DNA of 34,950 nucleotides from the NCBI GenBank assembly GCA_009930415.1, contig RZYG01000006.1, positions 1 to 34,950 of the forward strand, written 5' to 3'. Below, in pieces: positions 4,772-23,100 of this stretch. Numbering within the stretch: position 1 is the first letter of the stretch; the number at the start of each line of letters is the position of its first letter. Origin of the DNA: Spartobacteria bacterium (GTDB lineage: Bacteria > Verrucomicrobiota > Kiritimatiellia > CAIQIC01 > Lenti-01). Both the position numbers and the translations under genes were made by a program. Below the pieces are notes generated by a model. The model made no database searches. It saw only the letters and a program-made list of their open reading frames with translations, and was not told where the DNA came from.

Positions 4772-6021
4772 AGGTCCTGCTCGTCCATTACCGCTACTTC
4801 CTCTCCGGCGGTCCCGAGAGCTACCTGTTCAAGGTGGAGGATCTGTTCCGGCGGCACGGCGACGAGGTTTTCGTATTGTCCGCCCGGGACGCCCGCAACC
4901 GGCCCTGCCCCCAGGAAAACTATTTCGTCGAAGGCCGCGGAAACGACGTCTATTTCCGCCGGATCCGGCTGACGCCGGCCAATGCGCTCAAACTATTGAA
5001 GGGGGCGTTCTACAATCCCGAAGCCGCGCGCAACTTGACGCGCATGATCCGCGACCTGCGGCCCGACGCGGTCTACGTCCTGCAGCAGAACAACCTGCTC
5101 TCGCCCGCGGTCTTCATGGCGGCCCGGCGGGCCGGCGTGCGCGTCGTGCACCGGCTGTCGGACTACAATCCGATGTGCCCCCGCTTCGATTTCCTGCGCG
5201 CCGGCGAACCGTGCGAAAAATGCCTCGCCGGATCGCTGTGGAACGGCGTGCGCCACAAGTGCGTCCAGCATTCGTTCGGCGCTTCGCTGGTCCGGGTGCT
5301 GTCCATGGTCTTCCACCGCTGGATCGGGGCGTTCGATTGCCTGGACGGCTTCGTCGTCACCAACCGTTTCATGGAGCAAAAGCTGCGGGAATTCGGCGTC
5401 GCGCCCGAGCGGATCTTCCTCGTGCCGACGTTCATCGACAGCGCGGCCATCCAGCCCCGCTACGACCACGCGGGCTACGTTCTGTATCTGGGCCGCCTGG
5501 AACCCGAAAAGGGCCCCCAGTTCGCCGTCGCCGCCATGGCCCACCTTTCCGATCTGGATCTGCGGTTGAAACTCACCGGCACGTTGGCCGACGACCATAC
5601 CGGCCAGTTGGCCGCGCTGCTCGAACGACACGGCCTGGCGGAGCGGATCGACTTCGAGGGCTTCGTCCAGGGCGCGCAACTGGACGCGCTGATCGCGGGC
5701 GCGCTGGGCCTCGTTTGCCCGTCCGTGCTGTACGACAATCTGCCCAACGTCCTGCTCGAAGCCGCCGCCTACGGCAAGCCGGTGATCGCGCCCCGCCACG
5801 GCTGTTTTCCCGGAGTCGTCGACGACGGCCGCACGGGCCTGTTGTATGCGCCGGGCGACGCGGCCGATCTGGCGGACAAAATCCGGCGGCTGCAAACCAC
5901 GCCCGGCTTGGCCGAAACCCTCGGTCGGAACGCCCGCGCCAAATGCGAACGGGAATACGCACCGGAGCGCCACTATCGGGATCTGCGGCGGGTGCTCGAA
6001 CCCGCCGCCGCCGGAGCTTAG
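4768..6021 (+). CDS. Glycosyltransferase family 4 (group 1)
   Basis: MKVLLVHYRYFLSGGPESYLF...VLYLGRLEPEKGPQFAVAAM...LVCPSVLYDNLPNVLLEAAAYGKPVIAP; GT4 nucleotide-sugar binding motif. ATGA overlap with the upstream CDS. Confidence 0.93.
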   Translation: MKVLLVHYRYFLSGGPESYLFKVEDLFRRHGDEVFVLSARDARNRPCPQENYFVEGRGNDVYFRRIRLTPANALKLLKGAFYNPEAARNLTRMIRDLRPDAVYVLQQNNLLSPAVFMAARRAGVRVVHRLSDYNPMCPRFDFLRAGEPCEKCLAGSLWNGVRHKCVQHSFGASLVRVLSMVFHRWIGAFDCLDGFVVTNRFMEQKLREFGVAPERIFLVPTFIDSAAIQPRYDHAGYVLYLGRLEPEKGPQFAVAAMAHLSDLDLRLKLTGTLADDHTGQLAALLERHGLAERIDFEGFVQGAQLDALIAGALGLVCPSVLYDNLPNVLLEAAAYGKPVIAPRHGCFPGVVDDGRTGLLYAPGDAADLADKIRRLQTTPGLAETLGRNARAKCEREYAPERHYRDLRRVLEPAAAGA

Positions 6022-7199
6022 CGGCCCGCGGCCTCCGCGGCCGGGCCGGCGGCCCACACGTGCTTGGCCAACACGTCCAAATAGGCGCGGCCATGCCGCA
6101 AATCGGGCTCGAGATGGTTGCCTTCCCCCCACTCGTTCCAGGATTGCACGAACAAGATCCGCTGCTCGAACGGCTTGTCCCGCACCAGATCCAGCGCCTT
6201 GCACAGCGCCGTTTCGAAGTGCTGCGGCGTGCTGTTCACGTAGATGGCCGCCTTGCGGCCGCAGCGGGGGCTCCGGTCCCAGTTGGACACCAGCGTGGGA
6301 TAGACGTTTTCCCAGCGGTCTTCCGGCACGAACATGTGCCGCACGATCTGGTCGTAGCGATAGCGGTCCAGCAGGGACACGTTGAAGAACCGATCCCAGG
6401 TGCGCCGGACGAAACGATTCAAGCGCCCCTTGACCGCCACCTCCGCGCGCGTGATCCCGCGCGAATTGACCGCGTCGAACCCCATGTCCAAAATCGCTTG
6501 ATACAAGGATTGGGCCTCGTCCAGCCGGGGGAGTTGGACCTGGCCGTCGGCGCTCCGAAACGACACGTTGGACTGGGCCCCCACCAAGTGGAGGCCCGGC
6601 AGGCCGTTTTGCTGCGCCAACTCCCTCCAGATGGCGATGAAGGCCTTGACGTCCGGAATCCGCTTCGGCTCGAAGATCATGAACAGCGGCTTGCCGTCCA
6701 CCGTGAGGTAGCGCTTGTCGCGGAACGCCCCGAGCAGCGCCCGGAAATGCAGGACGTAATCCTCCTCGGAATAGGTCTGCTTCATCAATATCTTTTCCGG
6801 GCTGAACGCCGCGCGGCGCGTCCAGGTCTTGTTCGTCCAATCGTGGTTGGCCCAACCCAGGCAGAAGGGAAAATCAGGCTGGCCGCTGGCCAGCACTTCC
6901 TGGAACGGACGTTCCAGCAAGCGCTGGCCTCCGCCGAACCAATAGTGCCAGTAGCAAAAACCTTCGATGCCGGCTTCCCGCGCCAGTGCCGCCTGCGCCT
7001 CGCGGACTTCCGGCAGGCGCAAGTCGTAGAACCCCAGATCCGCGGGGATATGCGGCTGATAGTGCCCGCGAAACAGCGGCCGGGCCTTGGCCACGTTGGT
7101 CCACTCCGTGAACCCCTTGCCCCACCATTCGTCGTTTTCCGGAATCGGATGGAACTGGGGCAAGTAATTGGCGATCACTCTGGCTTGGCGCTTTTTCAT
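6018..7199 (-). CDS. WbsX / glycoside-hydrolase-99-like domain protein
   Basis: VIANYLPQFHPIPENDEWWGKGFTEWTNVAKARPLFRGHYQPHIPADLGFYDLR...IEGFCYWHYWFGGGQRLLERPF...WNEWGEGNHLEPD; WbsX signature. Start chosen at MKKRQARV. Confidence 0.93.
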   Translation of the reverse strand: MKKRQARVIANYLPQFHPIPENDEWWGKGFTEWTNVAKARPLFRGHYQPHIPADLGFYDLRLPEVREAQAALAREAGIEGFCYWHYWFGGGQRLLERPFQEVLASGQPDFPFCLGWANHDWTNKTWTRRAAFSPEKILMKQTYSEEDYVLHFRALLGAFRDKRYLTVDGKPLFMIFEPKRIPDVKAFIAIWRELAQQNGLPGLHLVGAQSNVSFRSADGQVQLPRLDEAQSLYQAILDMGFDAVNSRGITRAEVAVKGRLNRFVRRTWDRFFNVSLLDRYRYDQIVRHMFVPEDRWENVYPTLVSNWDRSPRCGRKAAIYVNSTPQHFETALCKALDLVRDKPFEQRILFVQSWNEWGEGNHLEPDLRHGRAYLDVLAKHVWAAGPAAEAAGR

Positions 7200-7236
7200 G
7201 CGGATTCCCCCACTTATCCGAAAACGCGCCGCCCTG

Positions 7237-8601
7237 TCAATTTCCATGCCGAGTCCGCGGCCCCCGCGAAAATCCCCCGCGCCGCCAAGCCATCTTCAGC
7301 GCATGCAGCATTCCCGCGATCCGCGCCGGCGGCGGCAAGTACTTCGCCGCGGCCAACGGCGTTGCCGTCCGGGGAAGCAGACGGAGGATTTCGTCGTTCA
7401 CCGCCATGGAACCGAACCCGGCCAAGGCGGCGGAACGGCATCGCGCGGCGTCTGCCCGAACGCGGGGCGCGTCCGCCAGATATTCCACCAATTCCGTTTC
7501 CTTTTCCAACACGATCCCGACGCCGGATTGCCGCGCTTCGTCGGCCACGTTTCCGCTGTCGGGATGGGTAAGCACCATCGTCCCGGCCTGCAGGCATTCG
7601 TAGAGAACGTAGCAGTAGGTTTCCGGCCAGAGCGACCAGAGGAGCACGACGTCCACGCCCGCTCGGCGCAAGGCTGCCGTCATGGCTCCGCGCCCGTCCC
7701 GGACGAATGAAATCGGCACGTTGCGGACCGTCCGGGGAGGATCCGAAGCCGGCCGGCCGAAATGGAAAAACTCGATCGGCATCCGACGCAGCTCCGGCCG
7801 CTGGCTGAGGCGCACGAAAACGTCCCAGCCTTTCGCCGTCGTCGGCGCGCCGACGAAACCGATTTTCAACGTCTCGCCGCCGGCCGCGGCGCCCGTGGCA
7901 CCCGTGGCGGCCGGCGCGTTGCCGGGCCGCCAGTGGGGAACGACCCGCATCTGGTCCGCCCACTCCGGATAGGCGCCGGCAAAGACGCGGGCGGCCGCCG
8001 CGGAGGGCACCCAAACGGACAAGCGGCCGCGCAAGCTGTCCAAAAAGGCCCGCATGGCCGGAGCATAGGCGGCATTCCAGCTGCGGCACCCCGCGCACTT
8101 TTCCGCCGAGGGAGCCGTCGGTCCGCAGAACTCCCGGCCGTTCCGCAGCAAATTGTATTGGCCGCAAACGGCGTGGTAGTCATGGACGAACAACCGCACC
8201 GGCGCGGGCACCGCCGCCAAGAAACGCGCGAGCGAATCCAAGGGGAAATCCTGGACGTGGTGCAACTGGACTTCCAACAGGCCGCCGGCCTTTCCCGGCC
8301 CCGCCGCGAGCCAGTCGGCCAACTCCGCCGCGCGAATGAACCCGCGCCATTTCCCGGCGGCCACCACGCCCCAGTATTGCGACAGCCAGGCATCCACCGC
8401 GCGGTTTCGCCGCGTCCGGAAAGGAAACACGCAAACGGCGGCGAGGCCGGCGCCGGCCAGCACTTCGATTTCTTCCGTCAGGTATTTTTCGAGCCCCGAG
8501 GCGGCCTGCCGATAGTCGGCCCGCGTGAAACACACGACGAAGCGCCCTGCCGGCGTTTTGGCGCGCGCCCCCTCGCCCACTTGGTCCGTCCGGTCGATCA
8601 A
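7237..8601 (-). CDS. Glycosyltransferase, GT4-like
   Basis: FTRADYRQAASGLEKYL...VRLFVHDYHAVCGQYNLLRNGREFCGPT...CAGCRSWN...KIGFVGAPTTAKGWDVFVRL; GT-B-like two-domain arrangement. Confidence 0.8.
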   Translation of the reverse strand: MIDRTDQVGEGARAKTPAGRFVVCFTRADYRQAASGLEKYLTEEIEVLAGAGLAAVCVFPFRTRRNRAVDAWLSQYWGVVAAGKWRGFIRAAELADWLAAGPGKAGGLLEVQLHHVQDFPLDSLARFLAAVPAPVRLFVHDYHAVCGQYNLLRNGREFCGPTAPSAEKCAGCRSWNAAYAPAMRAFLDSLRGRLSVWVPSAAAARVFAGAYPEWADQMRVVPHWRPGNAPAATGATGAAAGGETLKIGFVGAPTTAKGWDVFVRLSQRPELRRMPIEFFHFGRPASDPPRTVRNVPISFVRDGRGAMTAALRRAGVDVVLLWSLWPETYCYVLYECLQAGTMVLTHPDSGNVADEARQSGVGIVLEKETELVEYLADAPRVRADAARCRSAALAGFGSMAVNDEILRLLPRTATPLAAAKYLPPPARIAGMLHALKMAWRRGGFSRGPRTRHGN

Positions 8602-10148
8602 GCGGCCGGTTCCTCAAGCAAATCCGGCGCCGTCGGTTTCATGTCCCACGTCCGCCCCACCAGCATCCAGAGCGGGAACGACAAGACCGGAATGGTCACG
8701 ACCTTGATGAACAGAATCACGAAAAACATGAAGATCATGCAAGAAGCCAGAGACAAATACACCCCCACGAAAAGCGGGTGGGCCCGCGAGGCGGAGGCCT
8801 TGTTCAGCAACCGCCAGATCACCCAACCCCAGAAGCTGAAATACACGACGACCCCCAGCCAGCCGAACTCGCCCACCAGGGTATAGTAGTCCGACTGGGG
8901 CCAAGCCAATTGCGAGGCGCCCGTTCGCGTTCCGAAACCGCCGTAGGTCATTCGGCTCCGTTCGATTTCATCCCGGTAGGGAATGATGTAGCGGCGCGCC
9001 AAGCTGGCTTTGCCCGCCACGGCTTGATCCGAACAAAAGCGTCCCGGCCCCGCGCCAAAAAGCGGATACGGCACGAGATACTTGAAATCGACCGTGGTGG
9101 CCACGAACATTTCGCCTTTGGGAGAATATTTCATCTGCTGCCAGTTCCGGCGCAAATCCAGCCGACCGGCAAATAAGAGAAAATAGGCGGAACTCGCCAA
9201 TATGAAGACGATTCCGCCCGTCAGCAATCCGGACCGCAACCGGTACGAGATGGCCGGGTGGAACAAAAACGGCAGAAAAGCGAGCGGCGCAAACAGCAAC
9301 GCGTGCTTGGTATCCGTCATGAAGACCAAATTATATCCGATGACCAAGGCCAGCAACAGCACCAGGAATCGGCGCCGTTTCGGCAAATCGCGGCCGCGGC
9401 CGATCCACCAACCGGCCAGCAAAAACAGTCCGAAAACGCTTAGATATCCTACGATGTGGGCCGACCCCGTCCCCTCGGGCCCGAACACCCCGCCACTGAT
9501 GTCCGGATGGTAATGTGGCCACAGCCCTCTTTGCCAAAGGACGTTGTAGGCATATTGCAGCGCCGCGTAGCCAATGATGATCCACAACCAGCGGAGCATG
9601 TACCGCTCGTCATCGAACGTGCACGAAAGCCGGCAATAATACCAAAGGATGTAGGGCTTGAGCATCACCAGCGTGACCTGGACCGCCGTGAACGGCGAAC
9701 CCTTGCCGTTGACGTACCAGCTGACGGCCGCAATCAGGAAAAAAACCACGGGGAACAGGGTCGCCTCGCGAAGCTGACGACGCTGAATCCAGTTCATCGC
9801 GATCACCGCGATGAACGGCATGAAAAACAACTCGTCGATGAAAGTCGGCAAGGGCAACCCCAACAGGCCCAGCAAGCGATTGCTGGGCATGAGCATGAAA
9901 TAGAACATCATCAAGCCGAGCAGCATCCGGGGCCGGTCCAACAGCATGGTGCCCGCCGTGAAGACAATCGCCAAGAAAGCCCAACCCAGCGGCGCGGGAA
10001 TCCCGAACATCCCCGAGATGAAGAACATGGCCGTCAGCCCGATCGCGTAGCCGGCCACGGTGAGCCAGCCGATCCAGCGATACACGGGAAACTGGTAGCT
10101 GGATCGCCGACTGGGCGTCAGTTTGGTTGGGGCGGGAGGTTGATCCAT
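8598..10148 (-). CDS. O-antigen ligase/polymerase-like (Wzy/WaaL type) membrane protein
   Basis: Multipass hydrophobic protein with central YGGFGTRTGASQLAWPQSDYYTLVGEFGWLGVVVYFSFWGWVIW, typical of O-antigen ligase/polymerase C-terminal regions. ATGA-type overlap with downstream gene; start chosen at MDQPPAP. Confidence 0.75.
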   Translation of the reverse strand: MDQPPAPTKLTPSRRSSYQFPVYRWIGWLTVAGYAIGLTAMFFISGMFGIPAPLGWAFLAIVFTAGTMLLDRPRMLLGLMMFYFMLMPSNRLLGLLGLPLPTFIDELFFMPFIAVIAMNWIQRRQLREATLFPVVFFLIAAVSWYVNGKGSPFTAVQVTLVMLKPYILWYYCRLSCTFDDERYMLRWLWIIIGYAALQYAYNVLWQRGLWPHYHPDISGGVFGPEGTGSAHIVGYLSVFGLFLLAGWWIGRGRDLPKRRRFLVLLLALVIGYNLVFMTDTKHALLFAPLAFLPFLFHPAISYRLRSGLLTGGIVFILASSAYFLLFAGRLDLRRNWQQMKYSPKGEMFVATTVDFKYLVPYPLFGAGPGRFCSDQAVAGKASLARRYIIPYRDEIERSRMTYGGFGTRTGASQLAWPQSDYYTLVGEFGWLGVVVYFSFWGWVIWRLLNKASASRAHPLFVGVYLSLASCMIFMFFVILFIKVVTIPVLSFPLWMLVGRTWDMKPTAPDLLEEPAA

Positions 10149-10224
10149 ACGTTGGAGGGGCACTATGGTCTTTCGAGCACCAAAAGACAAACCGTTTCCG
10201 GCGCCCCGGCGCACCGCCGCCCGT

Positions 10225-11262
10225 TCATCCCGCGGCGCACCCGGTCCCGCTTTTCCGGTTCTGCCGTCGGGCTGCGCCCAGCCAGGGGACCGCCCGCATG
10301 GCCATCTTCAGATAAACGTATCCAACCGGAACCGGCAGCAAACTGTGCAGATAGCGGATTTTCCAGCCGCCGCCCATGCCGCGGAACGTGCTCCAACGGA
10401 AAGGCCGGCCCGCCCGCACGTCCTTCCGATACACGGCATAAGCATTCAGGCCCGCTTGGCGCGCGCGGTCCACAAGTTCGGCCCGGCGGACGGCCAAGAA
10501 TCGCAGGACGTCCGGGCGCGAGCCCAGTCCTTCCCGCCCCAGAAAGGCCTCCATCATGCCGAGGATTTGGAGCCAAGCGCCGAAACGCCGGACCGGATTC
10601 GCCGTCATGGTCGAATGGCCGTGGACCCGATAGAGATAGGTCGGCCCCTTCACGACGCCCATCGTCTCCGCCCGGCACGCCACCATCAGCGTCCAGAGAT
10701 CGTCTTCGTGGACCAACCCTTCGGCAAAATACAATTCGCGGTCGACGAGAAACCGGCGGCGCACGAAGCGATTGCCGACCAGCGTCTGCCAGTCGCTGCG
10801 CAAATACGCCCCCAGGATCGCGTCCCGGCCGCGATGCGCGCCGGCCGCCATGCGAACGGCCCAGCGGGGAAACGCTCCGCCCTCGATCTCGAATTCGCCC
10901 ACGGCAAAATCCAGGTCGCCGGCCCCGGCGCAGGCGACGAATCGCGCCAGCGTGTCCGGAAACATCTCGTCGTCGCTGTCGAGAAAATACAGGTAGTCGC
11001 CGGTGGCCGCGCGAATCCCCGTGTTGCGGGCCGCCGACTGGCCGCGGTTGCTTTCGTGGCGCAAGAGGCGGAAATCCACCGGTCCCCCGTACGCCGCAAG
11101 AAACCGCTCGGCGGACGCGACGCTGTCGTCCGTGCTGCCGTCGTCCACCAGCACACATTGGACGTCCGGATGGGTCTGGGCCGCAACGGAGGCCAGACAA
11201 CGCTCCAGGTAAGGCCCGGCATTGTAAACCGGAACGATGACGGTTACTTGCACGGGCGTCAC
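10225..11262 (-). CDS. Glycosyltransferase family 2
   Basis: VTVIVPVYNAGPYLERCLASVAAQTHPDVQCVLVDDGSTDDS...DYLYFLDSDDEMFPDTLARF. A GTG at 11262 is the likely start; the ORF extends to 11409 but that extension is basic and looks non-conserved. Confidence 0.88.
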   Translation of the reverse strand: MTPVQVTVIVPVYNAGPYLERCLASVAAQTHPDVQCVLVDDGSTDDSVASAERFLAAYGGPVDFRLLRHESNRGQSAARNTGIRAATGDYLYFLDSDDEMFPDTLARFVACAGAGDLDFAVGEFEIEGGAFPRWAVRMAAGAHRGRDAILGAYLRSDWQTLVGNRFVRRRFLVDRELYFAEGLVHEDDLWTLMVACRAETMGVVKGPTYLYRVHGHSTMTANPVRRFGAWLQILGMMEAFLGREGLGSRPDVLRFLAVRRAELVDRARQAGLNAYAVYRKDVRAGRPFRWSTFRGMGGGWKIRYLHSLLPVPVGYVYLKMAMRAVPWLGAARRQNRKSGTGCAAG

Positions 11263-11557
11263 GTCGTCCTTCGACCAATCCGCGGGAACCGCCGGAACGG
11301 CCTTCCGGCTCCGGCCGTGGCCGCCGCCGTGAGGGCGCCGCGATCCAGTCCCCGCCCTCCTCCGACCCTTTTTCTGCCACGTGTTTTTTGCACGGATGAA
11401 TCTTGCCATTGGCGGCGCACTTTTGCCACCATCATCTCGTCGTGGCGCCTGTTCGCTTTGTCCAAGGCTACGTCCGCCCGCCCAGCACGTTCATGAGCGA
11501 ATCAAGCAGTCTGCACGATGGATGACCGGCATCCGCCGCCCCCGCCGAATCCCCAAC

Positions 11558-13114
11558 ATGTCAACCCAACGAATCAGCCTGAACATGGCGGCCACCTACG
11601 CCCAAACCCTGGTGTCGCTGGTCATCGGGCTGTTTTGCTCGCGCTGGGTCTACAACGCGCTGGGGGAAACCCAGTTCGGTTTGTTCTCCGTCGTGGGCTC
11701 GCTCATCGCGTTCGTGGCCGTGTTGAACCAGACGCTGATCAGCAGTTCGGGCCGTTTTTTCGCTTTTGCGCTGGGCCAGCAGACCCGGCCGGACGTCGAC
11801 GGGGATTTGTTGTGCAAGTGGTTCAATACGGCGCTGAGCGTCCAACTCGTCGTGCCGGCGTTCCTGGTCGCCATTGGCGGTCCCGTGGGCGCCTATGCCA
11901 TCCGGCACGTGCTGAACGTCCCGGAACAGCTGCGGCTGTCTTCGACGTACATCTTTTACTTTTCGCTGTTCTCCATGTTCTCCACCATGGTTTTCAGCCC
12001 GATCCAAGCCCTGTATTACGCCAAACAGTTCATTTTCGTCCGAAACCTTTTTGGCATCGTCAACACCTTGCTCTTGGCCGCCGAAGGGTGGTGGCTGTTG
12101 CATTACGGCGGCAATCGCCTGCTGGCCCACGCGGCGGCCACCACCGTTCTGCTCCTGCTGTCGAACGTCGCCATCACGATTTTCGCGCGGCGACAATTCC
12201 CGGAAGCGCGAATCCGCTTCCGGTATTGGTTTGATCGCCGCCGGCTCCAACAGATGTTTTCCTATTCCTCCTTCCTGCTGTTCGGGACGCTGGGCACGTT
12301 GTTTGGAAATTCCGGGGTGGCGGTCGTCCTGAACAAGTTTTTCGGGCCGGCCGCCAATGCCGCGATGGGCATCGGGAACCAGGTGTTCCAAAAGTCGTCC
12401 GTCGTGGCGCAGGCCTTCAACGACGCCATTGCGCCGGAACTCACCACCCGGGTCGGCGCAAACCGATTCGAGCACGCCAAGCAGCTTGCGCTGCGGGCTT
12501 GTCTCTACTCCACCGCAATGGCGCTGCTGATTGCCGCTCCGTTCATCGCCTATGCGGACCGGATTCTGGCGCTGTGGCTGAAAACGCCTCCGCAATTTGC
12601 GGCGCAGATTGCGGTCATCATGATCCTGAACCTGCTGGTGGAGCGGCTGACTTCCGGGTACATGATGCTGGTGCAGGCCAGCGGGCGGATCAAGATGTAC
12701 ACCACTTGTCTCGGCATCGGGAACGGCGCGCGCTGCCTGCTGGTTCTGATTCTGTTGCTCGACGGCGTCCCGCTCATCCCCGCGCTTTGGCTGGGCTGGT
12801 TTCTGCCCTTCCTGATTCTCAACCAGATGCGCGTTTGGTTCGCCAAACAGGCCGTCGGCGTCTCGGTGCGCGAGTATTTCCGAGTCGTTCTCGTTCCCTT
12901 GGCGTTGATGGGCGGCGGCTCGTTCGCTTTTTGCTTCGGCTTCAAGGAACTGGCCGGCGAAGCGGTCTGGGCCATCCTGACGGGATCCGCCGCGAATGCC
13001 GGCCTCGTGGGGGCGTTGCTCTGGCTGCTGATCGGCCCGACGGAACGCCGTTTTCTCGGCGCCAAGCTCGGCGCCGCATGGGACAAACTGCTTCGGGGCG
13101 TTTCCGCGCGCTAG
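11558..13114 (+). CDS. Polysaccharide flippase (Wzx/MATE-like)
   Basis: MSTQRISLNMAATYAQTLVSLVIGLFCSRWVYNALGETQFGLFSVVGSLIAFVAVLN...; multipass pattern of polysaccharide export flippases. Start chosen at 11558. Confidence 0.85.
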   Translation: MSTQRISLNMAATYAQTLVSLVIGLFCSRWVYNALGETQFGLFSVVGSLIAFVAVLNQTLISSSGRFFAFALGQQTRPDVDGDLLCKWFNTALSVQLVVPAFLVAIGGPVGAYAIRHVLNVPEQLRLSSTYIFYFSLFSMFSTMVFSPIQALYYAKQFIFVRNLFGIVNTLLLAAEGWWLLHYGGNRLLAHAAATTVLLLLSNVAITIFARRQFPEARIRFRYWFDRRRLQQMFSYSSFLLFGTLGTLFGNSGVAVVLNKFFGPAANAAMGIGNQVFQKSSVVAQAFNDAIAPELTTRVGANRFEHAKQLALRACLYSTAMALLIAAPFIAYADRILALWLKTPPQFAAQIAVIMILNLLVERLTSGYMMLVQASGRIKMYTTCLGIGNGARCLLVLILLLDGVPLIPALWLGWFLPFLILNQMRVWFAKQAVGVSVREYFRVVLVPLALMGGGSFAFCFGFKELAGEAVWAILTGSAANAGLVGALLWLLIGPTERRFLGAKLGAAWDKLLRGVSAR

Positions 13115-13202: not shown

Positions 13203-14978
13203 ATGGATTCCGGCAAATTCTACACGGACGAGCAGAACGCGCAAATCGTCATCGCGCTCCTGAAAGCGCATGGCATCCGCAAGGTCGTGGCCAGTCCGGG
13301 CGCGACCAACATTCCCATCACCGGAAGCATTCAGAACGATTCTTCCTTCGAAGTCTGGTCGGCCGCCGATGAACGCTCGGCGGCCTACATCGCCTGCGGC
13401 CTCGCCGCCGCCACCGGAGAAGCCGTGGCGCTGAGTTGCACGGGCGCCACCGCCAGCCGCAACTATCTGCCGGGCTTGACGGAGGCCTACTACCGCAAAC
13501 TGCCGGTGATCGCGATCACTTCCGGCCCCGGCTTCGCCAGCGTCGGCCACCTCGTGGCCCAAAGCATCGATCGCTCGTTGTTTCCCCGCGATGCGGCGAA
13601 GATCAGCGTTTCCCTCCCCTCGGTCAAGGACCGCGCGGAGGCTTCCGCCTGCAAGCACCTTGCCGAGAAGGCCATCCTCGAAGCCTTTCGCCAGGGCGGC
13701 GGTCCAGTCCATCTCAATCTGGAAACTTCCTACAAGGGCACCTTCAACTCCCGCGAACTGCCGGCCCTCCGCGTCGTCCGGCGCATCGGCCCCGGCGCAA
13801 CCGATTGGCCGGCCCTGCCGGCTTCCGCCAAGATCGGGGTGTTCATCGGTTCCCACAAGCCTTTCGCCGCGGCGGAAGCCGAAGCGCTGGCCGCGTTCGC
13901 GCAAGCGCGGGATGCGGTCGTGTTCTGCGACCACACGAGCGCCTACCGGGGCCCGGGCCGGATCCTGTCCGCCTTGCCGTGCGCGCAAAACCTGCCCGCC
14001 AAAAGCGAATATCCGGCCTTGAAGCCCGATCTGCTCATCCACGTCGGCGAAGTCTCCGGAGATTACCCGACGCAAGGCTTTCTGATGAACGCAGCTCCCG
14101 TCTGGCGGGTCAGCGAGGATGGCGAAGTCCGCGATCGGTTCTCGCGCCTGGAACGCGTTTTCGAAATGCGGGAAGCGGATTTCTTCCGCCGGTATGCCCA
14201 AGACGCCGCCGCGGTTCCCGGCGGATACCAAGAGGCTTGGCGGAACTATGCGGCGCGGCTCCGGCCGGCCATTCCCGACCTCCCCTTTTCCAACGCCTGG
14301 ATCGCCCAGACGCTGGCCCCCCAGCTGCCCCCGGACTGCGCGCTGCACCTCGGCATCCTCAATTCCCTGCGTTGCTGGAATTATTTCGACGTGGAGGCAT
14401 CGATTTCGCCGGCCGCCAACGTCGGTGGATTCGGCATCGACGGCTGCGTCTCCACGCTGATCGGCGCCTCGCTGGCCGACCCCGCGAAGTTGCATTTCGG
14501 GGTGGTCGGCGATCTGGCGTTTTTCTACGACCTCAATTCCCTCGGCAACCGCCACGTCGGTTCCAATCTGCGCATTCTGCTCGTCAACAACGGCGGCGGC
14601 GGCGAATTCAAACTCAACAGCCACATCGGCGCCCAGTTCGGGCATCAAACCAACGAGTTCATCGCGGCGGCCCGGCATTACGGAAACAAGTCGCCGGATT
14701 TGGCGAAACACTACGCCGAGGATCTCGGCTTCAGGTATCTCTGCGCCAACGACAAGCCGGAATTCCAGGGTGCCGTCAAAGAATTCGTCGATCCCCAGAA
14801 ACGGGACCAGTCCATCCTCTTCGAATGTTTCACCGATTTTGCGAACGATTCGGATGCGCTGGAGGCGTTGGAACACCTCGACGACACGGTGGCCGCCGCC
14901 TTCGTCGCGCGCCGCTTCGTCGGCCAGGTTCTCCCGCCCTCCGTCAAAAACGCCATCAAAACCTTTTTGCATCCATGA
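13203..14978 (+). CDS. Thiamine-diphosphate-dependent enzyme, MenD-like
   Basis: SPGATNIPITGSI...ADERSAAYIACGLAAATGEAVALSCTGATASRNYLPGLTEAYYRKLPVIAIT and GDLAFFYDLNSLGNRHVGSNLRILLVNNGGGGEF (ThDP/Mg motif GDx..NN). AAGGA Shine-Dalgarno-like element just upstream of ATG. Confidence 0.88.
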   Translation: MDSGKFYTDEQNAQIVIALLKAHGIRKVVASPGATNIPITGSIQNDSSFEVWSAADERSAAYIACGLAAATGEAVALSCTGATASRNYLPGLTEAYYRKLPVIAITSGPGFASVGHLVAQSIDRSLFPRDAAKISVSLPSVKDRAEASACKHLAEKAILEAFRQGGGPVHLNLETSYKGTFNSRELPALRVVRRIGPGATDWPALPASAKIGVFIGSHKPFAAAEAEALAAFAQARDAVVFCDHTSAYRGPGRILSALPCAQNLPAKSEYPALKPDLLIHVGEVSGDYPTQGFLMNAAPVWRVSEDGEVRDRFSRLERVFEMREADFFRRYAQDAAAVPGGYQEAWRNYAARLRPAIPDLPFSNAWIAQTLAPQLPPDCALHLGILNSLRCWNYFDVEASISPAANVGGFGIDGCVSTLIGASLADPAKLHFGVVGDLAFFYDLNSLGNRHVGSNLRILLVNNGGGGEFKLNSHIGAQFGHQTNEFIAAARHYGNKSPDLAKHYAEDLGFRYLCANDKPEFQGAVKEFVDPQKRDQSILFECFTDFANDSDALEALEHLDDTVAAAFVARRFVGQVLPPSVKNAIKTFLHP

Positions 14979-16039
14979 CCGGCCGCAAGATTCTCGTTCT
15001 TGGCGGAACGGGCGCGATGGGCGTGTACCTCGTCCCCGCATTGCTTCGGGCAGGCTTCCAAGTGCTCGCCACGAGCCGCACACATAGGGAAACAACTCAT
15101 CCCAACCTGCGGTATCTCCAAGGCGACGGACGCGATATGGCGTTCCTGTCTTCCCTCCTTTCCAACCTCCATCCCGACGCCATTGTCGATTTCATGTCGT
15201 ATGGTACGGAAGCATTCGCCGCAAGGCGTCATCTTCTGCTGGATTTCACGTCCCAATATCTTTTCCTTTCGTCGTACCGCGTCTTTGCCGACAGTTCGAC
15301 CATTCCGTTGACAGAGCGCTCCCCTCGCCTGCTGGACGTCTGCGACGATCCAGCCTACTTGGCCACGGACGAATATGCGCTGGCCAAAGCCCGCCAGGAA
15401 AACCTGCTGCGCGAATCCGGCCTAAGAAATTGGACCATTCTGCGCCCGGGAATCACCTATTCTCACAACCGTTTCCAGTTCGGGACGCTCGAGGCCAACA
15501 CGGTTTGCTTCCGCGCGTTGCAGGGATTGCCCGTCATCATGGCGCGGGAAATCCTGGCCAGACAAACCACCATGACCTGGGCAGGAGACGTTGCCAAGCT
15601 CATCGTTCCGCTTGTCTTGAACCCGGAAGCGCTGGCAGAGGATTACAATATTGTGACGGCCGAACACCGGCTTTGGTCGGAAATCGCACAGCACTACAGC
15701 GACTTCCTAAATCTTCGCGTCGTGGAAACGGACCTCGCCACCTATGCGGCCGTCGTCGGGCGTCTTCCGCAGATACGATTCGACCGCATGTACGACCGCA
15801 TCATGGATAATTCCAAGGTGTTGGCCGCAACCGAAATTGCACAAGCGGATTTCATGCCTTTGCGCAACGGCCTGGAGCGGGAACTGGCCTCATTCAAAAA
15901 GCATCCCTATTACCAGTATCCCGACTTTGCCCTCAATGCCAGAATGGACCGTGCGACGGGCACCCGCATGTCGCTGGCGGGTCTTCCTCTCAAGCGAAAA
16001 ATCCGTTATTTTCTCGAAAAACACCGGTCGGCAAAATGA
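14975..16039 (+). CDS. NAD-dependent epimerase/dehydratase family protein
   Basis: MTGRKILVLGGTGAMGVYLVPALL...YLFLSSYRVFADSS...DEYALAKARQENLLRESGLRNWTILRPGITY; SDR YxxxK motif. ATGA overlap with the MenD-like CDS. Confidence 0.88.
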   Translation: MTGRKILVLGGTGAMGVYLVPALLRAGFQVLATSRTHRETTHPNLRYLQGDGRDMAFLSSLLSNLHPDAIVDFMSYGTEAFAARRHLLLDFTSQYLFLSSYRVFADSSTIPLTERSPRLLDVCDDPAYLATDEYALAKARQENLLRESGLRNWTILRPGITYSHNRFQFGTLEANTVCFRALQGLPVIMAREILARQTTMTWAGDVAKLIVPLVLNPEALAEDYNIVTAEHRLWSEIAQHYSDFLNLRVVETDLATYAAVVGRLPQIRFDRMYDRIMDNSKVLAATEIAQADFMPLRNGLERELASFKKHPYYQYPDFALNARMDRATGTRMSLAGLPLKRKIRYFLEKHRSAK

Positions 16040-17139
16040 AAGTCGCGCTTGTCACCTTCCACTGCGCATGGAGCTACGGGGCCGTTTTGCAAGCCCACGC
16101 GCTCTGCCGTTTTCTGACCCAGGCGGGCCATGCCGTTGAAATCGTCGATTACCGCCCGGACGCCATCGAAAATCCCCCCGATTGGCGGCGCGACCGGTTC
16201 CGCGGTTTCCACCCGGCCCATTTCGAATGGTGGCTGACCGGACGTCGTTTTGCCGCGTTTCGCCAGGCTTTTTTGCCGTTGTCCCCCCAAATCTACCGTT
16301 CGCATGCCGAACTCCGGGCGAACCCTCCGGAGGCGGATGCCTACGTATGCGGCAGCGACCAAATCTGGAATCCCGAGATCACGAGCGGCCGCTTGGATCC
16401 CGCCTATTTCCTGGATTTCGCTCCGGCGGGCAAGCGGCGAATCGCCTATGCCGCCAGCCTGGGCGGCACGCACCTGTCGTCCACCTGTCTGGCGACCTTC
16501 CGGGAACTGGTCTCTCGCCTCGATTTCATTTCTTGCCGGGAAGCCGAGGCCGCGGCTTTCGTCGAAACCGCAACGGGACGGGAAGTCGCCACGACGCTCG
16601 ACCCGGCACTGCTGGCGGGCAATGGAGACGCCTCGGAACGGCCCGAACCGCCCGCCCGCAAACCCTACCTCTTTGCCTTCACCTTGCAGCAACGTCCAGA
16701 CCTGTTAACGGCCATCGACACCGGCGCGCGCGAATTGGGTTGTCCCGCCCGCATCGCAAACGGTCCCTGGAAGTGGTGGACGTTGCCAGGGCACCCCGTT
16801 TATCCCGGCCCAGGGGAATGGGTCCGGTGGGTGCGGCATTCCGCGGCCGTCTTGACCGACTCTTTCCACGGAACGGTTTTCGCCATCCTGAACCACCGGA
16901 ATTTCATTGTATTTCCGCTGGCCGGCCGAATGGCCGACCGCAACCCGAGGATCGTCCGCCTGCTGGAATCCCTGGGCCTGCAGGACCGGATGGTGCCACC
17001 TGCCGATCTGGAAGCCATTCGCCAGTTGCTCCACGCCCCCATGGATTGGGCGGACGTCGAGCACCGTCTGGCTGCGCTGCGGCTAGCGTCTTCGCGATTT
17101 CTTCTCCGCGCGTTGTCAGCCCCCCTTCCCCAGCGCTGA
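16036..17139 (+). CDS. Polysaccharide pyruvyl transferase family protein
   Basis: MKVALVTFHCAWSYGAVLQAHALCRFLTQAGHAVEIVDYRP...YVCGSDQIWNPEIT...RRIAYAASLGG...LTDSFHGTVFAILNHRNFIVF; family signature. ATGA overlap with upstream gene. Confidence 0.92.
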   Translation: MKVALVTFHCAWSYGAVLQAHALCRFLTQAGHAVEIVDYRPDAIENPPDWRRDRFRGFHPAHFEWWLTGRRFAAFRQAFLPLSPQIYRSHAELRANPPEADAYVCGSDQIWNPEITSGRLDPAYFLDFAPAGKRRIAYAASLGGTHLSSTCLATFRELVSRLDFISCREAEAAAFVETATGREVATTLDPALLAGNGDASERPEPPARKPYLFAFTLQQRPDLLTAIDTGARELGCPARIANGPWKWWTLPGHPVYPGPGEWVRWVRHSAAVLTDSFHGTVFAILNHRNFIVFPLAGRMADRNPRIVRLLESLGLQDRMVPPADLEAIRQLLHAPMDWADVEHRLAALRLASSRFLLRALSAPLPQR

Positions 17140-17172: not shown

Positions 17173-20100
17173 CTACGGTACCCGTGGATCCGTCCCGGCC
17201 AGATATTCCGCGCCGTTGCTGGCGCCGTCGCCGTCGGCATCGGCCAGCCAATCGTCGACGAGCGCCAGTTCGTTGGTGCCCAGCGCGGAACGGTAGATCC
17301 GCAGGTCGTCGATCCGGCCGCGCCAATAGGCCTCGGGCACGTTGACGTGGCCGCCGCCGATGCGCAGCTCGGGCTGCCGGGCCGCCGTGAAGGCTTGCGG
17401 GGCGGCGGCGACTTCCCGGCCGTCCACGAACAGGCGGGCCTGGATGCCGTCGTGCGCCAAGGCGACGTCCACCCAGCGCCCCGCCCTGACGCCGCTCCAG
17501 TTGGTGGCCAGAACGGCGCCGACCGGCGCATTGCTGCTGCCGGCATAGCCGGCCAGCGCGTCCAAACCGGCCACGTAGCGCAATGCAAAGCCCGGCCAAC
17601 GGTTGGTCATGAACAGATAGCCGTCGGACACCACGGTCGGATAGACGTTGGTCCAGCCCGGTTCCTGCCAGATCACGGCCGTCACGGTGAACGGCGCGCC
17701 CGTCACCACGGCCGCAGCCGTCTGATCCACGGCCACATAGTCGTTCGCACCATCGAAACCCAGAGCCGTGCCGACGCCGCGGCCGGCCGTCCAATTGGTT
17801 TCCGCCATGGCAACCAACCGGGCCGGCCACAGGGCAGTTGCGCGGTTGGAGACGATGCCGTCCGCGGTTTCCTCGAAAGTCCAGCGAGCCGCGAGGCCAT
17901 GGGCCAACCCGCCATCCGAGGCCGGATTGAAGCCATAGTCCACTTCCCAGCCATCGGGCAGGCCATCGGCATCCGTGTCGGGAGCCAGCGGATCGGCGCC
18001 GTTCGCGATTTCCGGGCCATCCTCGAGACCATCGGCATCCGTGTCGGGGACCAGCGGCAAGGTCCCCCACCCGTACTCTTCCAGATTGATCAGGCCGTCG
18101 CCGTCGGGATCTTCGTCGGCATTGGCCACGTTCGCGTTCAGCCCGGAATCCAGCTCCCATTTGTCCGGCAGGCCGTCGACATCCGTGTCGGCCGCGAGCG
18201 GATTCGTCGCATGGGTCCAGACTTCGGCCCCGTCGCTCAAGCCGTCGTCGTCGCTGTCGGCATCGAACGGGTCGGTGCCGCGCGCGATTTCGTCGCCGTC
18301 CAGAAGTCCATCCGCATCCGGATCGGCTTGGAGGGGCCACGTGCCGTTGACGTATTCCTGGAAATGGGTCAGGCCATCGTCGTCGTCGTCGTCGTCTGCG
18401 TCGTCCAGCAGCGGATTCGTGCCGAAGGCCACTTCCCAGGCATCGGGCATTTGGTCGCCATCGGTGTCCATCAACAGCGGATCGGTGCCGTGGACCGCCA
18501 CTTCGTCGTAATCCGACAGGCCGTCGCCATCGGTGTCGGGATCGTTGGGATCGGTGCCCTGTTGCCATTCGCGGCCGTTGACCAGGCCATCCAGATCGGG
18601 ATCGCCCAGCCAGTCGTTGACCACCGCCAAATGGAAGGCATCCAGCGCGGAACGATAGATGCGCACGTCGTCGATCTTGCCGCGCCAGAAAGCGTCAAGC
18701 ACGTTGAGATGGCCGCCGCCGATCAGCAGTTCGGACTGCCGCACGGCATCGAAACCGTTTGAGGTCGTGCCGGCAAGCTGGCCCTCCACGTAGAGCCGGG
18801 TCCAAGTGCCGTCGTGCGTCAGGGCCACGTCCACCCAGCGGCCGCCGCCGATCGGAAGCCAATTGGTCGTCCCGGCCCCGTAGGTCACCGCGTTGCTGTT
18901 GCCGGCCAATCCGACCAGCCGGTTCTGGCCGGCATGGTAGCGCAAAACGTACCCGGGCACCCGATCGCCCGAGACCAGCCGCGCATCGGAGACCACCGTC
19001 GGATACAGTCCGGTCCAGGCTTCATCCTGCCAGATCACGGCGGTCACGGTGAAGGGCGCGGCCGTCACCACCGCGTGGCCGGCCGCTTGCGCGACGGCCA
19101 CGGCGTCGTTGACGCCGTCGAACCACAAAGCGCGGCCGCCCCGGCCGGCGATCCAATTGGTCTCCGTCATGAACCGCAACGTACCCGGCCAGTTCGTCGA
19201 GACCGCGTTCGAGGCGACGCCGCCGACGCCTTCGTCGAACGTCCAGCGCGCGGCCAACCCGTATTCCAGCCCGCCGTCCGACGTGAGATCCAGGCCGTTG
19301 TCCCGTTCCCACAGATCCGGCAACCCGTCGCTGTCGGAATCCGGTTCCCGCGGATGGCTGCCGTAGCCGTGTTCGAGCCAATTGCTCAGCCCATCGGCAT
19401 CGGCGTCGGCGGCGGCATCGTCCTCCAGCGGCAGCAGGCCGTACCGCACCTCCCAACCATCCCACATGCCATCGCCGTCCGAGTCCGGGTCCAGCGGATC
19501 GGTGGCGCCGGGAACCGTTTCCGCCGCATCGGACAACCCGTCGCCGTCCGTATCCGGGTTGGCCGGATCGGTGTGATGGAGCGCCACTTCGTCGCCGTCG
19601 CTCAAGCCGTCGCCGTCCGTGTCGGGATCCATGGGATCGGTTCCGTAGGTCGCTTCCAGTTCGTTGCTCAAGCCGTCGTCGTCGTCGTCGTTGCCGGCAT
19701 CGTCGGAAAGCGGATTCAATCCCACCGCGATTTCCCACGAATCCGACAAGCCGTCGCCGTCCGTATCCACGGCCAACGGATCCGTTCCCCACGTCACGAT
19801 TTCGGCATAATCGTTGAGGCCGTCGCCGTCGGAATCCGGATCCAGAGGCGCGGTGCCGTAGGTGATCGCCTCGGCGCGGTCGTTCAGCCCGTCGCCGTCC
19901 GTGTCGACCCGCGCGGGATGCGTGCCGTGCTGCAGGACTTCCGCAGCGTCGGCGAGCCCGTCGCCGTCCGTATCCCCAAGCGTCGGATTCGCGCCGGCGG
20001 CGTACTCCTGCAGGTTCGTCAGGCCATCCCCGTCCGGATCGCCGCCCGCGATCTCGTCCAGATGGCCCAAACGCAGGCGCTCCCACGCGTCCGGCAAACC

Positions 20101-23100
20101 GTCTCCGTCGACATCGGCCAACACCACGGTTTCCGGCGCGTTCGCCCACGTTCCGAAATAGCGATTGGTTTCCACAACCCGGCCGGCTTCGTCGAACGCA
20201 AGGACATGGAAGATGCCGCGAACCCGCCAATGCAGGGGCTGGCCGGCGGCCGGCATCGGCTGATCCAGCATGGACCAGTCGATCCGCGCAGTGGCCGTCA
20301 GCGTCCTCAGGTTGGTTGCGGAGAAATCCGTCGCGGCGCTGAACTGCCACTCGTAGGCCTGGGCCTGTTCCAGCGGCGCCCAGGCGAAGCGGATAATTGG
20401 ATTGGTCGTCGTGTCGCCCGTGGCGGAATGGCCTTCCAGCGGCGCCCAGAGTTTCGCGAACCGCTCGCGGGACCAAAGGTCGGCGACTTCCGGCACGTAA
20501 TGCGCGTTTTGATACGAACTGGTGTAGCCCGGCCGATTGACCAGCAGGAACGCGGAATACGGCACGACGAGGCTGGATTGGAATTCCGGCAAAACCGCAT
20601 GGGCCACGTCGTTCGACAGCCAATTCAGGTTGTACGTGGCGTTGGTGGCGCCGGGCGATACCGCCGGGAAGGGATAGGTGTGCGCCATCGCGTAGCTGCC
20701 GAAACCGGTGTTGGTGCCCATCACCTCTTTCAGACCCGCCAGTTGCAACTGGACGTCTTCTTCCACCCGCCGGGCCGTTGTTCCGTACGTGTAGCGCCGG
20801 CTGTTTTCCATCACCATCCAATCCAAATCGGGAATTTGCGAAAGCAGCGGCAGATTGATGGCGGCCCACGGTTTCCAGGCCAATTGCGGCGAAATGAACG
20901 CCACCATCCCCCGCCAGTGGGCGTTCGTGGCGTTGAGCGCGGCCAATTGTTCCGCATAGCCGGCCATCAGATGGGCGAACACCACCTGCCGCCATTCCCA
21001 CCACTGGGCCCAGTGGTCCGGATCGGTCGTGATCTCGAACCGGTTGGTGATGGCCTCATCCAGCACCAGGCGATAAGCCGCCGCGTTGGTCGCCTCCGCG
21101 GCCCCGTACCCCAGCGGAGAGACCGGGAAGCGGATGCCGGCATGCGCCGGGCCGTAGCGGGCGACGACATATTCCCGGAACCAAGCCAAGCCGTTGGTGC
21201 TGGCCGTGGGACTCCGCAGATAGGACCCGTCTTCCCATCCGTTCAGCGACGGTTCGTTGAAGAAGAAATAGCCGTAGTCCGAAAATACGGACAGGTCCAG
21301 CCGCCACTTGTCCAGGAAGTTGCTCACGGTGGTCCGATCGGCCACGTCGAACCGCGGCACCTCGAAGGAATCGTTGATGACCCACGTCGCATTGGTCAGG
21401 AATACGCGGATTTCCGCGCCGTTCGTCGTCGCGGCCAGGCATTCGGCCCGGTTCGGCAACGAATTGGAATAGCGGTAGCAAATCTTGGGTTCCAGATGGT
21501 TGGCGCTGCTGAGGGCGATGTCCAGGCCTTCCTCGTTGCCGATGGCGATGGCATCGCGGACGTTCGCCTCGATGATGTCCCAGGTCTTGGGGGCGGATTG
21601 GGCCCAGCCCATCCAGCTCATGGTTTTTTCCGCGGCGTCGGCCACCTGGGCATAGCGCCGGATCAGCACGCGCATCGCGTTGCTGGACACGAAGTCCGCC
21701 ACGCCCATCGGCCGCGTGATTTCCTGGATCAGCGTGCGCGGCCGGGCCCCGGGCGCCGGCGGGTCCTTGGCCCGCAGCGCGAACGTCGGCAGCGGGTTGG
21801 TGGCGGCCATCCCGTAGGCCGTCGGCCGCACGTGCGCGGCCACCCAGTCCACCTTGGCCGCATAGATTCCATCGGCCCAGGAGCCGAACCGAACGGCGTT
21901 GGACCGCACCACCCCGGACCAGGGGGCCGCCACGAACGCGGCGTTCCAATAATCGGTTTCGTATTCCCAGAAAGACGTGGTCAGCCGCGGATTGTGGACC
22001 AGCCCCATGTCCGCTTGATGGTCGATGCCGTTGACGAACAAGCGCATTTCGGCCGTGGGCCGACCCGTGTTGAATCCGCGCCAACTGGCCGTGATCCGGT
22101 TGGTCGCGTTCGACAGCAAGAACCCGCCGCCGACCAGGTTCGGATGGAATACGGCATGCCGGTTGCCGTCCGCATCCATCAGGATGAACTTCAGCTTGTC
22201 GTTTTCCAGGAAGACGTGGATTTCGTTGCCGGGATTCGAATCCCCGAAATGCGCCAGGTACTGCGGCGGATCCTCGGGCGTCCAATCCCGGGGCACGAAG
22301 AGCATATCCAGCGCGCCTTCGGATCCGGCGACGCCGGCATCCGCCCGGGGATCTTCGGCGGCGAGGAATTCCTCGCGGTTGCTGGCACCGTCGGCGTTGG
22401 CGTCGGCTTGGGCCTCGAACAATTCGGCCAGTTGCGCGGACGTCAGGGCGGTTCCGTAGATCCGCACGTCGTCCATCTTGCCCCGCCAGGCGGAATCCGG
22501 CTCGTTCACGTGGCCGCGGCCAATGCGCAGCTCGGCGTTGGTGGCCGGCACGAACACGTTGGTCCGGGCGCTCCAGAGGCTGCCGTCCACGTAGAGCCGC
22601 GTCGTGTCCTGCTCCTGGACCAGCGCGACGTGGGTCCAACGTCCGCCCCAGCGGGCACCCCACAAATCGGCGGCGACTTCGGCGACGGGCTGATCGGCGC
22701 TCCCCACCAATCCCATCACCTGGTCGCCTCCTTCCGTCACGCGCAGCGTGAACCCGGGCCAGTAGGCGTCGCCCCGCCAAGCGCCATCCGAAACCAAGGT
22801 TGGATACGGCGAAGCTCCCGTCTCCTGCCAGACCCAGGCGCAAACCGTAAACGAACCGCCCGTGACCACCGCGCCTTGAGCCTGCGCTACGGCCACGTAG
22901 CCGTTGGAACCGCCCAGCCACAGCGCCCCGCGGCCTTTGGCGTCGTTGGTCCATTGCGTGCCCGTCGCGCCGCGGATTTGGGCCGGATACTCGGCGCTGG
23001 CGGAATTGACCAGCGCGGTGCCCGCGCCTTCGTCGAAGCGCAACCACAACCGCAGGTGCAGATTCGTCGCCATTCCGGACAAGGGGTTGAATTCATAATC

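Follow-up and report, generated by a model that had tools for sequence, protein, structure and literature searches.

We propose that three overlapping genes in the window (the whole 34,950-nucleotide stretch of Spartobacteria bacterium contig RZYG01000006.1 analyzed here) probably encode a carboligase-ketoreductase module of MenD descent that carries out a two-step C-C extension for a cell-surface glycan, with the donor, the acceptor, the order of the steps and the product all being predictions. In the first step, the MenD-derived ThDP enzyme would decarboxylate a 2-oxoacid and let the resulting acyl carbanion attack a carbonyl acceptor other than isochorismate to give an alpha-hydroxyketone. 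In the second, the adjacent NADPH-dependent reductase, which in the window is an extended SDR but elsewhere can be a classical SDR or an aldo/keto reductase, would turn the ketone into a diol-type branch. The product would then join the repeat unit handled by the neighboring glycosyltransferases and flippase, and in most loci the PF04230 protein may further decorate the same glycan, or possibly transfer the product.

The genes of the locus are listed in Table 1. As an earlier note on this DNA had described, the three genes of the cassette are tied together by two 4-nt ATGA overlaps, both of which are present in the DNA, and they lie behind a MatE flippase gene on the same strand. The motifs that it had called MenD-like (SPGATN, ADERSA, CTGATASRNYLPG, GDLAFFYDLN, and NNGGGG) are all found in the translation of the first gene. 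The Pfam/TIGRFAM matches are TPP_enzyme_N (1.3e-18) for the ThDP gene, Epimerase (1.8e-10) for the SDR gene and PS_pyruv_trans (2e-29) for the third gene. The flippase is the usual neighbor of the cassette in other loci, and the 120 genes in a census of cassette neighbors are mainly glycosyltransferases and acyltransferases. Because the same genes co-occur in loci of several phyla, their grouping is not due to chance.

Table 1. Cassette genes, their overlaps, and the surrounding polysaccharide genes (positions in the window)
Feature	Position	Strand	Basis and assignment
Multi-pass membrane protein, probable Wzy-type polymerase/ligase	8598..10214	-	Inferred from hydrophobic sequence; no Pfam family
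WbsX-type glycosyltransferase, context	6018..7247	-	Profile search
Family 2 glycosyltransferase, polysaccharide-locus context	10225..11409	-	Profile search
Polysaccharide flippase, MatE/Wzx-like, 518 aa	11558..13114	+	Pfam MatE
MenD-derived ThDP enzyme, 591 aa, ATG start	13203..14978	+	ORF and profile search; predicted carboligase
ATGA overlap, ThDP gene stop/SDR start	14975..14978	+	DNA letters
Extended SDR, 354 aa, ATG start	14975..16039	+	ORF and profile search; predicted NADPH ketoreductase
ATGA overlap, SDR stop/PF04230 start	16036..16039	+	DNA letters
PF04230 polysaccharide pyruvyl transferase family protein, 367 aa, ATG start	16036..17139	+	ORF and profile search

By both sequence and genome content, the ThDP gene is not a menaquinone MenD. 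MenD (SEPHCHC synthase, TIGR00173) is both the best profile and the source of the best folds for its product, and the two have in common their fold, length, ThDP/Mg residues, GDLxFxYDxN motif and R395. However, the TIGR00173 score of 183.9-185.7 bits lies under the curated cut-off of 244.2, the isochorismate residues and two 2-oxoglutarate residues are replaced, an E takes the place of I474, and the cassette enzyme has a polysaccharide locus and a reductase partner. Profile searches of the genome assembly (93% complete) found no menD, menB, menA, isochorismate synthase or PF02621 over cut-off, the matches to menA and isochorismate synthase all being under it, and the futalosine pathway (PF02621/mqn genes) was not found in the assembly. 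The remark in the earlier note that no other menaquinone gene is visible near the cassette therefore extends, at these cut-offs, to those searched for across the genome. Its suggested check for a canonical menD elsewhere in the genome turned up no second menD, but menB, mqn genes and an over-cut-off isochorismate synthase are missing as well. A canonical menD over cut-off is also present in 9 of the 19 other carrier genomes, and those without one include Qipengyuania, Paucibacter, and Pseudohongiella genomes.

The branching order of MenD and MenD-like sequences varies with sampling: the MenD-like family joins the Bacteroidota MenD rows in a first tree, while in a second, from which two long rows were omitted, the MenD rows group on one side (support 99) and the data do not reject a single MenD-like clade (p-AU 0.37). 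The window protein falls outside the rows of canonical MenD, and its isochorismate residues are replaced. The refuting outcome named in the earlier note, a placement inside bona fide MenD with every isochorismate-binding residue present and no other menD in the genome, was thus not obtained, in support of its proposal of a MenD relative with another role in a polysaccharide locus. That it is instead a divergent true MenD lying by chance in such a locus is scarcely credible. The MenD profile and folds and the absence of another menD from the genome are what one would expect of it, but the sub-cut-off score, the missing menB and futalosine genes, the canonical menD coexisting in other carriers and the family-wide loss of the isochorismate residues rule out a canonical menaquinone role.

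Pocket roles were assigned by homology to Escherichia coli MenD numbering across an alignment of 44 family rows, using as a yardstick the residue roles described for MenD (PMC12312563) together with general MenD knowledge. The ThDP/Mg residues and the catalytic Glu are kept in the window protein as E57, Q120, D437, and N463 (E55, Q118, D442, and N469 in MenD), and their equivalents and that of R395 are kept in every family row that covers them. The comparison of isochorismate and 2-oxoglutarate residues that the earlier note had called for revealed a different substrate pocket. The isochorismate residues S32, R33, and K292 are A34, T35, and Y288 in the window protein, and across the family these positions are T/A, T (39 of 44 rows, with R in none), and mostly Y, respectively. 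Two of the three 2-oxoglutarate-carboxylate residues are also lost, S391 becoming L386 and R413 becoming V407 (mostly L, and V/T, in the family), and R395 alone is kept (R390). The I474 position is E in 41 of the 44 rows, including E468 of the window protein. The AF2 model of the enzyme has poor domain placement relative to MenD (rmsd 17-19 A), and the pocket was accordingly read from sequence. Since R395 is kept, a distal acid group on the donor is possible, as is some use of a 2-oxoglutarate-type donor on this sequence reading, although the loss of S391 and R413 makes 2-oxoglutarate itself less likely. C-C bond formation, as had been suggested for the cassette, is supported as what a ThDP enzyme of the MenD lineage would most naturally do, with a sugar as a candidate acceptor.

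The most direct clue to the chemistry is the free exchange of non-orthologous reductases beside the ThDP gene. An NAD(P)H reductase adjoins it in 43 of 44 assessable loci, which span Bacteroidota, Pseudomonadota, Bacillota, Verrucomicrobiota and relatives of the window organism, locus L020 being the sole exception. Cultured carriers include Gayadomonas joobiniege G7 and Dyadobacter. The partner is an extended SDR in 17 loci, a FabG-like classical SDR in 24 and an aldo/keto reductase in two. Mapped onto the ThDP tree, SDR type changes 13 times against a shuffled mean of 12.8 and so carries no phylogenetic signal. A genome of the same genus as the window (G024) has the same cassette but with a classical SDR, and in two species of that genus with different SDR types the flippase and ThDP genes are 75-78% identical. 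The extended SDR of the window has GGTGAMG, S100, and Y134xxxK138, all of them conserved. Following strand 2 it has T33-S-R35, of which T33 and R35 are invariant in the extended SDRs, and it lacks the acidic residue that marks tightly held NAD. Both SDR types share an invariant Arg after strand 2 along with an invariant catalytic Y/K pair, a pattern typical of NADPH reductases.

Because the SDR types swap so freely, the most fitting interpretation of the "epimerase" is a ketoreductase predicted to act on the ThDP product. The earlier description of it as a sugar-nucleotide SDR fits less well, given that classical SDRs and aldo/keto reductases stand in its place in other loci. The AF2 model (pLDDT 91.7) has NDP-sugar epimerases as its nearest folds (TM about 0.63), which leaves some probability to an epimerase or dehydratase function. 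Those folds, and the fact that pyruvyl transferases are common in polysaccharide loci, are what recommends an operon of independent functions, in which the SDR would be an NDP-sugar epimerase or dehydratase, the PF04230 protein would form pyruvate ketals and the ThDP chemistry would be unrelated. We regard this as quite improbable, as members of three reductase families stand in for each other beside the ThDP gene across 43 of 44 loci, the invariant TSR-type motif suits NADPH better than tightly held NAD, and the aldo/keto reductases among these partners are not known to carry out epimerase or dehydratase chemistry.

An obligatory reductase of interchangeable fold is also predicted if the ThDP enzyme is a decarboxylase paired with an aldehyde reductase, which would convert a 2-oxoacid via an aldehyde to a hydroxyalkyl compound that is then linked to the glycan, no C-C bond being formed, in the manner of phosphonopyruvate decarboxylase and its reductase. 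The hydrophobic replacements S391L and R413V, together with the glutamate (E468) gained where MenD has I474, could favor the carbanion protonation that this needs. We nevertheless consider it unlikely, as the lineage stands next to MenD, a carboligase. Its phosphonate version can be set aside, since the best PEP mutase match in the genome falls below the cut-off (19.6 versus 31.5 bits).

For a carboligase followed by a ketoreductase, the best reading by analogy is that the cassette resembles YerE plus a reductase. YerE couples activated acetaldehyde with a keto sugar (PMC12247030), and acetyl branches of this kind have been proposed to undergo ketoreduction in work on an octose ketoreductase (PMC4753412). 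As in the pathways of yersiniose-type branched O-antigen sugars, a ThDP enzyme is accompanied by a reductase in an envelope glycan locus (43 of 44 loci), with an alpha-hydroxyketone and then a diol as predicted products. The systems differ in that the cassette enzyme is nearest to MenD by profile, fold and solved relatives, YerE having been compared by description rather than sequence, and in that the YerE substrate is CDP-3,6-dideoxy-4-keto-glucose, the pathway to which was not found in the window genome. Neither CDP-glucose 4,6-dehydratase nor RmlB was found over cut-off in the genome, and hence the genome does not provide the very acceptor that YerE uses; with no CDP-glucose 4,6-dehydratase among the listed neighbor families either, the exact yersiniose route is ruled out. 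No NDP-keto-sugar enzyme is consistently near the cassettes, each listed NDP-sugar family matching at most 5 of the 120 neighbor genes, and this rarity rules out a fixed NDP-sugar pathway beside the cassette.

The third gene is a clear member of the polysaccharide pyruvyl transferases (103.8 bits versus a PF04230 gathering score of 25.3), and a PDB search by sequence found no solved PF04230 homolog. Of 47 loci, 36 have a PF04230 gene, as a rule immediately downstream, but at least nine loci that have downstream sequence lack it. Hence the earlier inclusion of a pyruvyl transferase in the cassette holds for family membership and frequency but not for an obligatory role, as the gene is missing from some loci and poorly conserved. 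In the same loci conservation declines from the ThDP enzyme (54%) through the reductase (46-48%) and the flippase (38-41%) to the PF04230 proteins, which share only about 29-33% identity, a gradient consistent with a small product that stays constant while the glycans vary.

In a stronger version of the carboligase-ketoreductase reading, the ThDP/reductase pair would supply a particular small donor, and the PF04230 protein would attach this, rather than pyruvate, to the glycan. The frequent downstream position of the gene suits this, and conserved donor-making enzymes with a variable transferase would be the natural outcome were the glycan acceptor the sole variable, but the gene is missing from the loci noted above and characterized PF04230 enzymes use phosphoenolpyruvate, which leaves this version rather doubtful. 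The same tentative standing, on the unlikely side, applies to the broader notion that a lineage split from MenD became a mobile glycan carboligase which, with a swappable reductase, makes a branched acid or sugar that PF04230 proteins transfer as an undescribed surface substituent.

If true, a carboligase role would represent an uncharacterized C-C-bond-forming step in surface polysaccharides common to gut Bacteroidota, marine gammaproteobacteria and clostridia, and a second ThDP route to branched glycans, of MenD rather than YerE descent. None of the literature searched describes a capsule or O-antigen locus that contains a MenD-like gene. The menD profile match of such genes invites a menD annotation and with it a false prediction of menaquinone synthesis; the labels in the one annotated public record examined are "thiamine pyrophosphate-binding protein," "NAD-dependent epimerase," and "pyruvyl transferase." Under generic annotation, in a record that gives no function, genes for a PF04230 protein, a flippase, a ThDP protein and an NAD-dependent epimerase adjoin one another on plasmid pRUMAL01 of Ruminococcus albus 7 (RUMAL_RS18370-18385), in an order that is permuted relative to that of the window.

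We propose that the MenD-like thiamine-diphosphate (ThDP) enzyme of the window (591 aa) acts together with the reductase encoded beside it, and this module is a real, widespread variant of the ThDP-plus-reductase kind that is seemingly undescribed, since no published description of such a module was found in the set of open-access papers searched. In a genome scan the family came up at 38 loci (identity 46-54%), spread over Bacteroidota, Pseudomonadota, Bacillota and Verrucomicrobiota; eight carriers lie among 193 relatives with the window's genome counted in, and a plasmid search added Ruminococcus albus, a patchy distribution that points to horizontal transfer. Most often the genes run flippase, reductase, ThDP gene and PF04230 (polysaccharide pyruvyl transferase family) gene; in the window and in G024, a genome of the same genus, the reductase follows the ThDP gene, and R. 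albus has a permuted order. The cassette of R. albus 7 lies on the mobilizable plasmid pRUMAL01, amid LicD, acyltransferase and nucleotidyltransferase genes.

The reductase is the most telling partner. Three of the 47 loci (L029, L034 and L039) begin at the ThDP gene on a contig edge and are not assessable, and in 43 of the 44 judged, which include the near-copies L021 and L031, a reductase lies beside the ThDP gene, L020 being the sole one without. It is a FabG-like classical SDR in 24 loci and an extended SDR in 17 (R. albus counted by annotation and Pfam match). In the other two an aldo/keto reductase carrying a D-Y-K-H tetrad takes this place, directly adjacent in L019 and one small gene off in L027. 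On the ThDP tree SDR type requires 13 changes, no fewer than with shuffled labels (mean 12.8); weakly supported branches may raise the count of 13. The plainest single swap, independent of the tree, is G024, which has a classical SDR where the window has an extended one (identity to the window 78% for the flippase, 75% for the ThDP protein and 57% for the PF04230 protein). The three most divergent family members also have a classical SDR adjacent. What the partners have in common is carbonyl reduction with NAD(P)H. In both SDR families the catalytic Tyr and Lys are retained and an Arg directly following strand 2 never varies, which fits NADPH reductases.

PF04230 proteins occur in 36 of the 47 loci and are missing from at least nine that have downstream sequence. 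Compared in the same loci, mean pairwise identity falls from 54% in the ThDP protein through 46-48% in the reductase and 38-41% in the flippase to 29-33% in the PF04230 protein, and we therefore infer that the ThDP/reductase pair acts like one unit with one constant product, and the flippase and PF04230 protein like proteins tracking a changing glycan.

A menaquinone role for the ThDP gene was considered and rejected. The protein scores 183.9-185.7 bits against the curated menD model (cut-off 244.2), menB and futalosine-pathway genes are missing from the window's genome (3.1 Mb in 471 contigs, 93% complete), which has only sub-cut-off matches to menA and isochorismate synthase, and a separate canonical menD over cut-off is present in 9 of 19 other carriers; the remaining 10, including Qipengyuania, Paucibacter and Pseudohongiella genomes, have none. 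The earlier note had suggested checking for a canonical menD elsewhere in the genome, where the protein turned out to be the sole menD-model match. Its distinction from MenD held in a tree that also contained the canonical MenDs of carrier genomes, MenD of E. coli and acetolactate synthases: the family is separate from every MenD row, and sampling decides whether it joins the MenDs of Bacteroidota or sits next to MenD as a group.

The active site, read from an alignment of the 44-row family to E. coli MenD with residue roles from PMC12312563 and general MenD knowledge, agrees. E55 (the catalytic Glu), Gln118, Asp442 and Asn469 are kept in every member covering these positions, and the isochorismate residues are lost: Ser32 has usually become T/A, Arg33 has become Thr in 39 of 44 and is kept in none, and Lys292 has usually become Tyr. 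Of the 2-oxoglutarate carboxylate trio only Arg395 is invariant; Leu usually stands at Ser391 and Val/Thr at Arg413, where Arg never occurs. The position of Ile474, which lies by the cofactor in MenD, holds Glu in 41 of 44, and new family-wide residues include R86, D123-R124, W301-R302 and H492. A fold search with a predicted model supports the MenD fold, the best 50 matches all being MenD structures; this single-chain model (TM about 0.5, rmsd 17-19 A) has poorly placed domains and is thus evidence for fold, not pocket geometry.

The best reading of the pair is that the ThDP enzyme, a carboligase, would decarboxylate a 2-oxoacid and join what remains to an acceptor carbonyl, and the reductase would then reduce the resulting ketone, the same logic as that of YerE in branched O-antigen sugars. 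The main rival is decarboxylation and aldehyde reduction with no C-C bond made. A keto sugar is a possible acceptor for carboligation; the neighbour-gene census found no NDP-keto-sugar pathway consistently near the cassette, and neither a CDP route nor PEP mutase is over cut-off in the window's genome.

Coordinates of the cassette, its surroundings and related loci
Feature	Coordinates	Strand
Second extended SDR	871-1956	-
Flippase	11558-13114	
MenD-like ThDP gene	13203-14978	+
Extended SDR gene	14975-16039	+
PF04230 gene	16036-17139	+
5370-aa ORF	17173-33285	-
DUF362 protein	33404-34831	-
ThDP ORF, Lachnospiraceae locus	L019:5653-7656	
Tandem MenD-like genes, Oscillospiraceae locus	L035:4045-7731	
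DUF362-like gene, G024 locus	L079:11665-13107	
R. albus 7 cassette	L096:8992-11808	

Inspection of ORFs and DNA places the three cassette genes and their two ATGA overlaps where the earlier note had them, and its polysaccharide setting is borne out by glycosyltransferases and a WbsX protein upstream on both strands, together with a membrane protein that has no Pfam family and, judged from its sequence, is a probable Wzy-type protein. Downstream, on the opposite strand, a single ORF with a signal-like stretch at its start, DSDGDGIDD-type repeats and LamG-like segments probably encodes a giant surface protein. At the window's far end, the other extended SDR has CDP-tyvelose 2-epimerases as best solved relatives (1.5e-37), and despite this no CDP-glucose 4,6-dehydratase is over cut-off in the genome. 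Among the other loci, L019 has a ThDP ORF with an N-terminal extension resembling a Rossmann/PglD-type domain, and 4Fe-4S motifs in the adjacent aldo/keto reductase; the tandem MenD-like genes of L035 come from different parts of the tree and are followed by an SDR with an apparent frameshift. A gene very similar to that for the window's DUF362 protein lies just past the G024 cassette.
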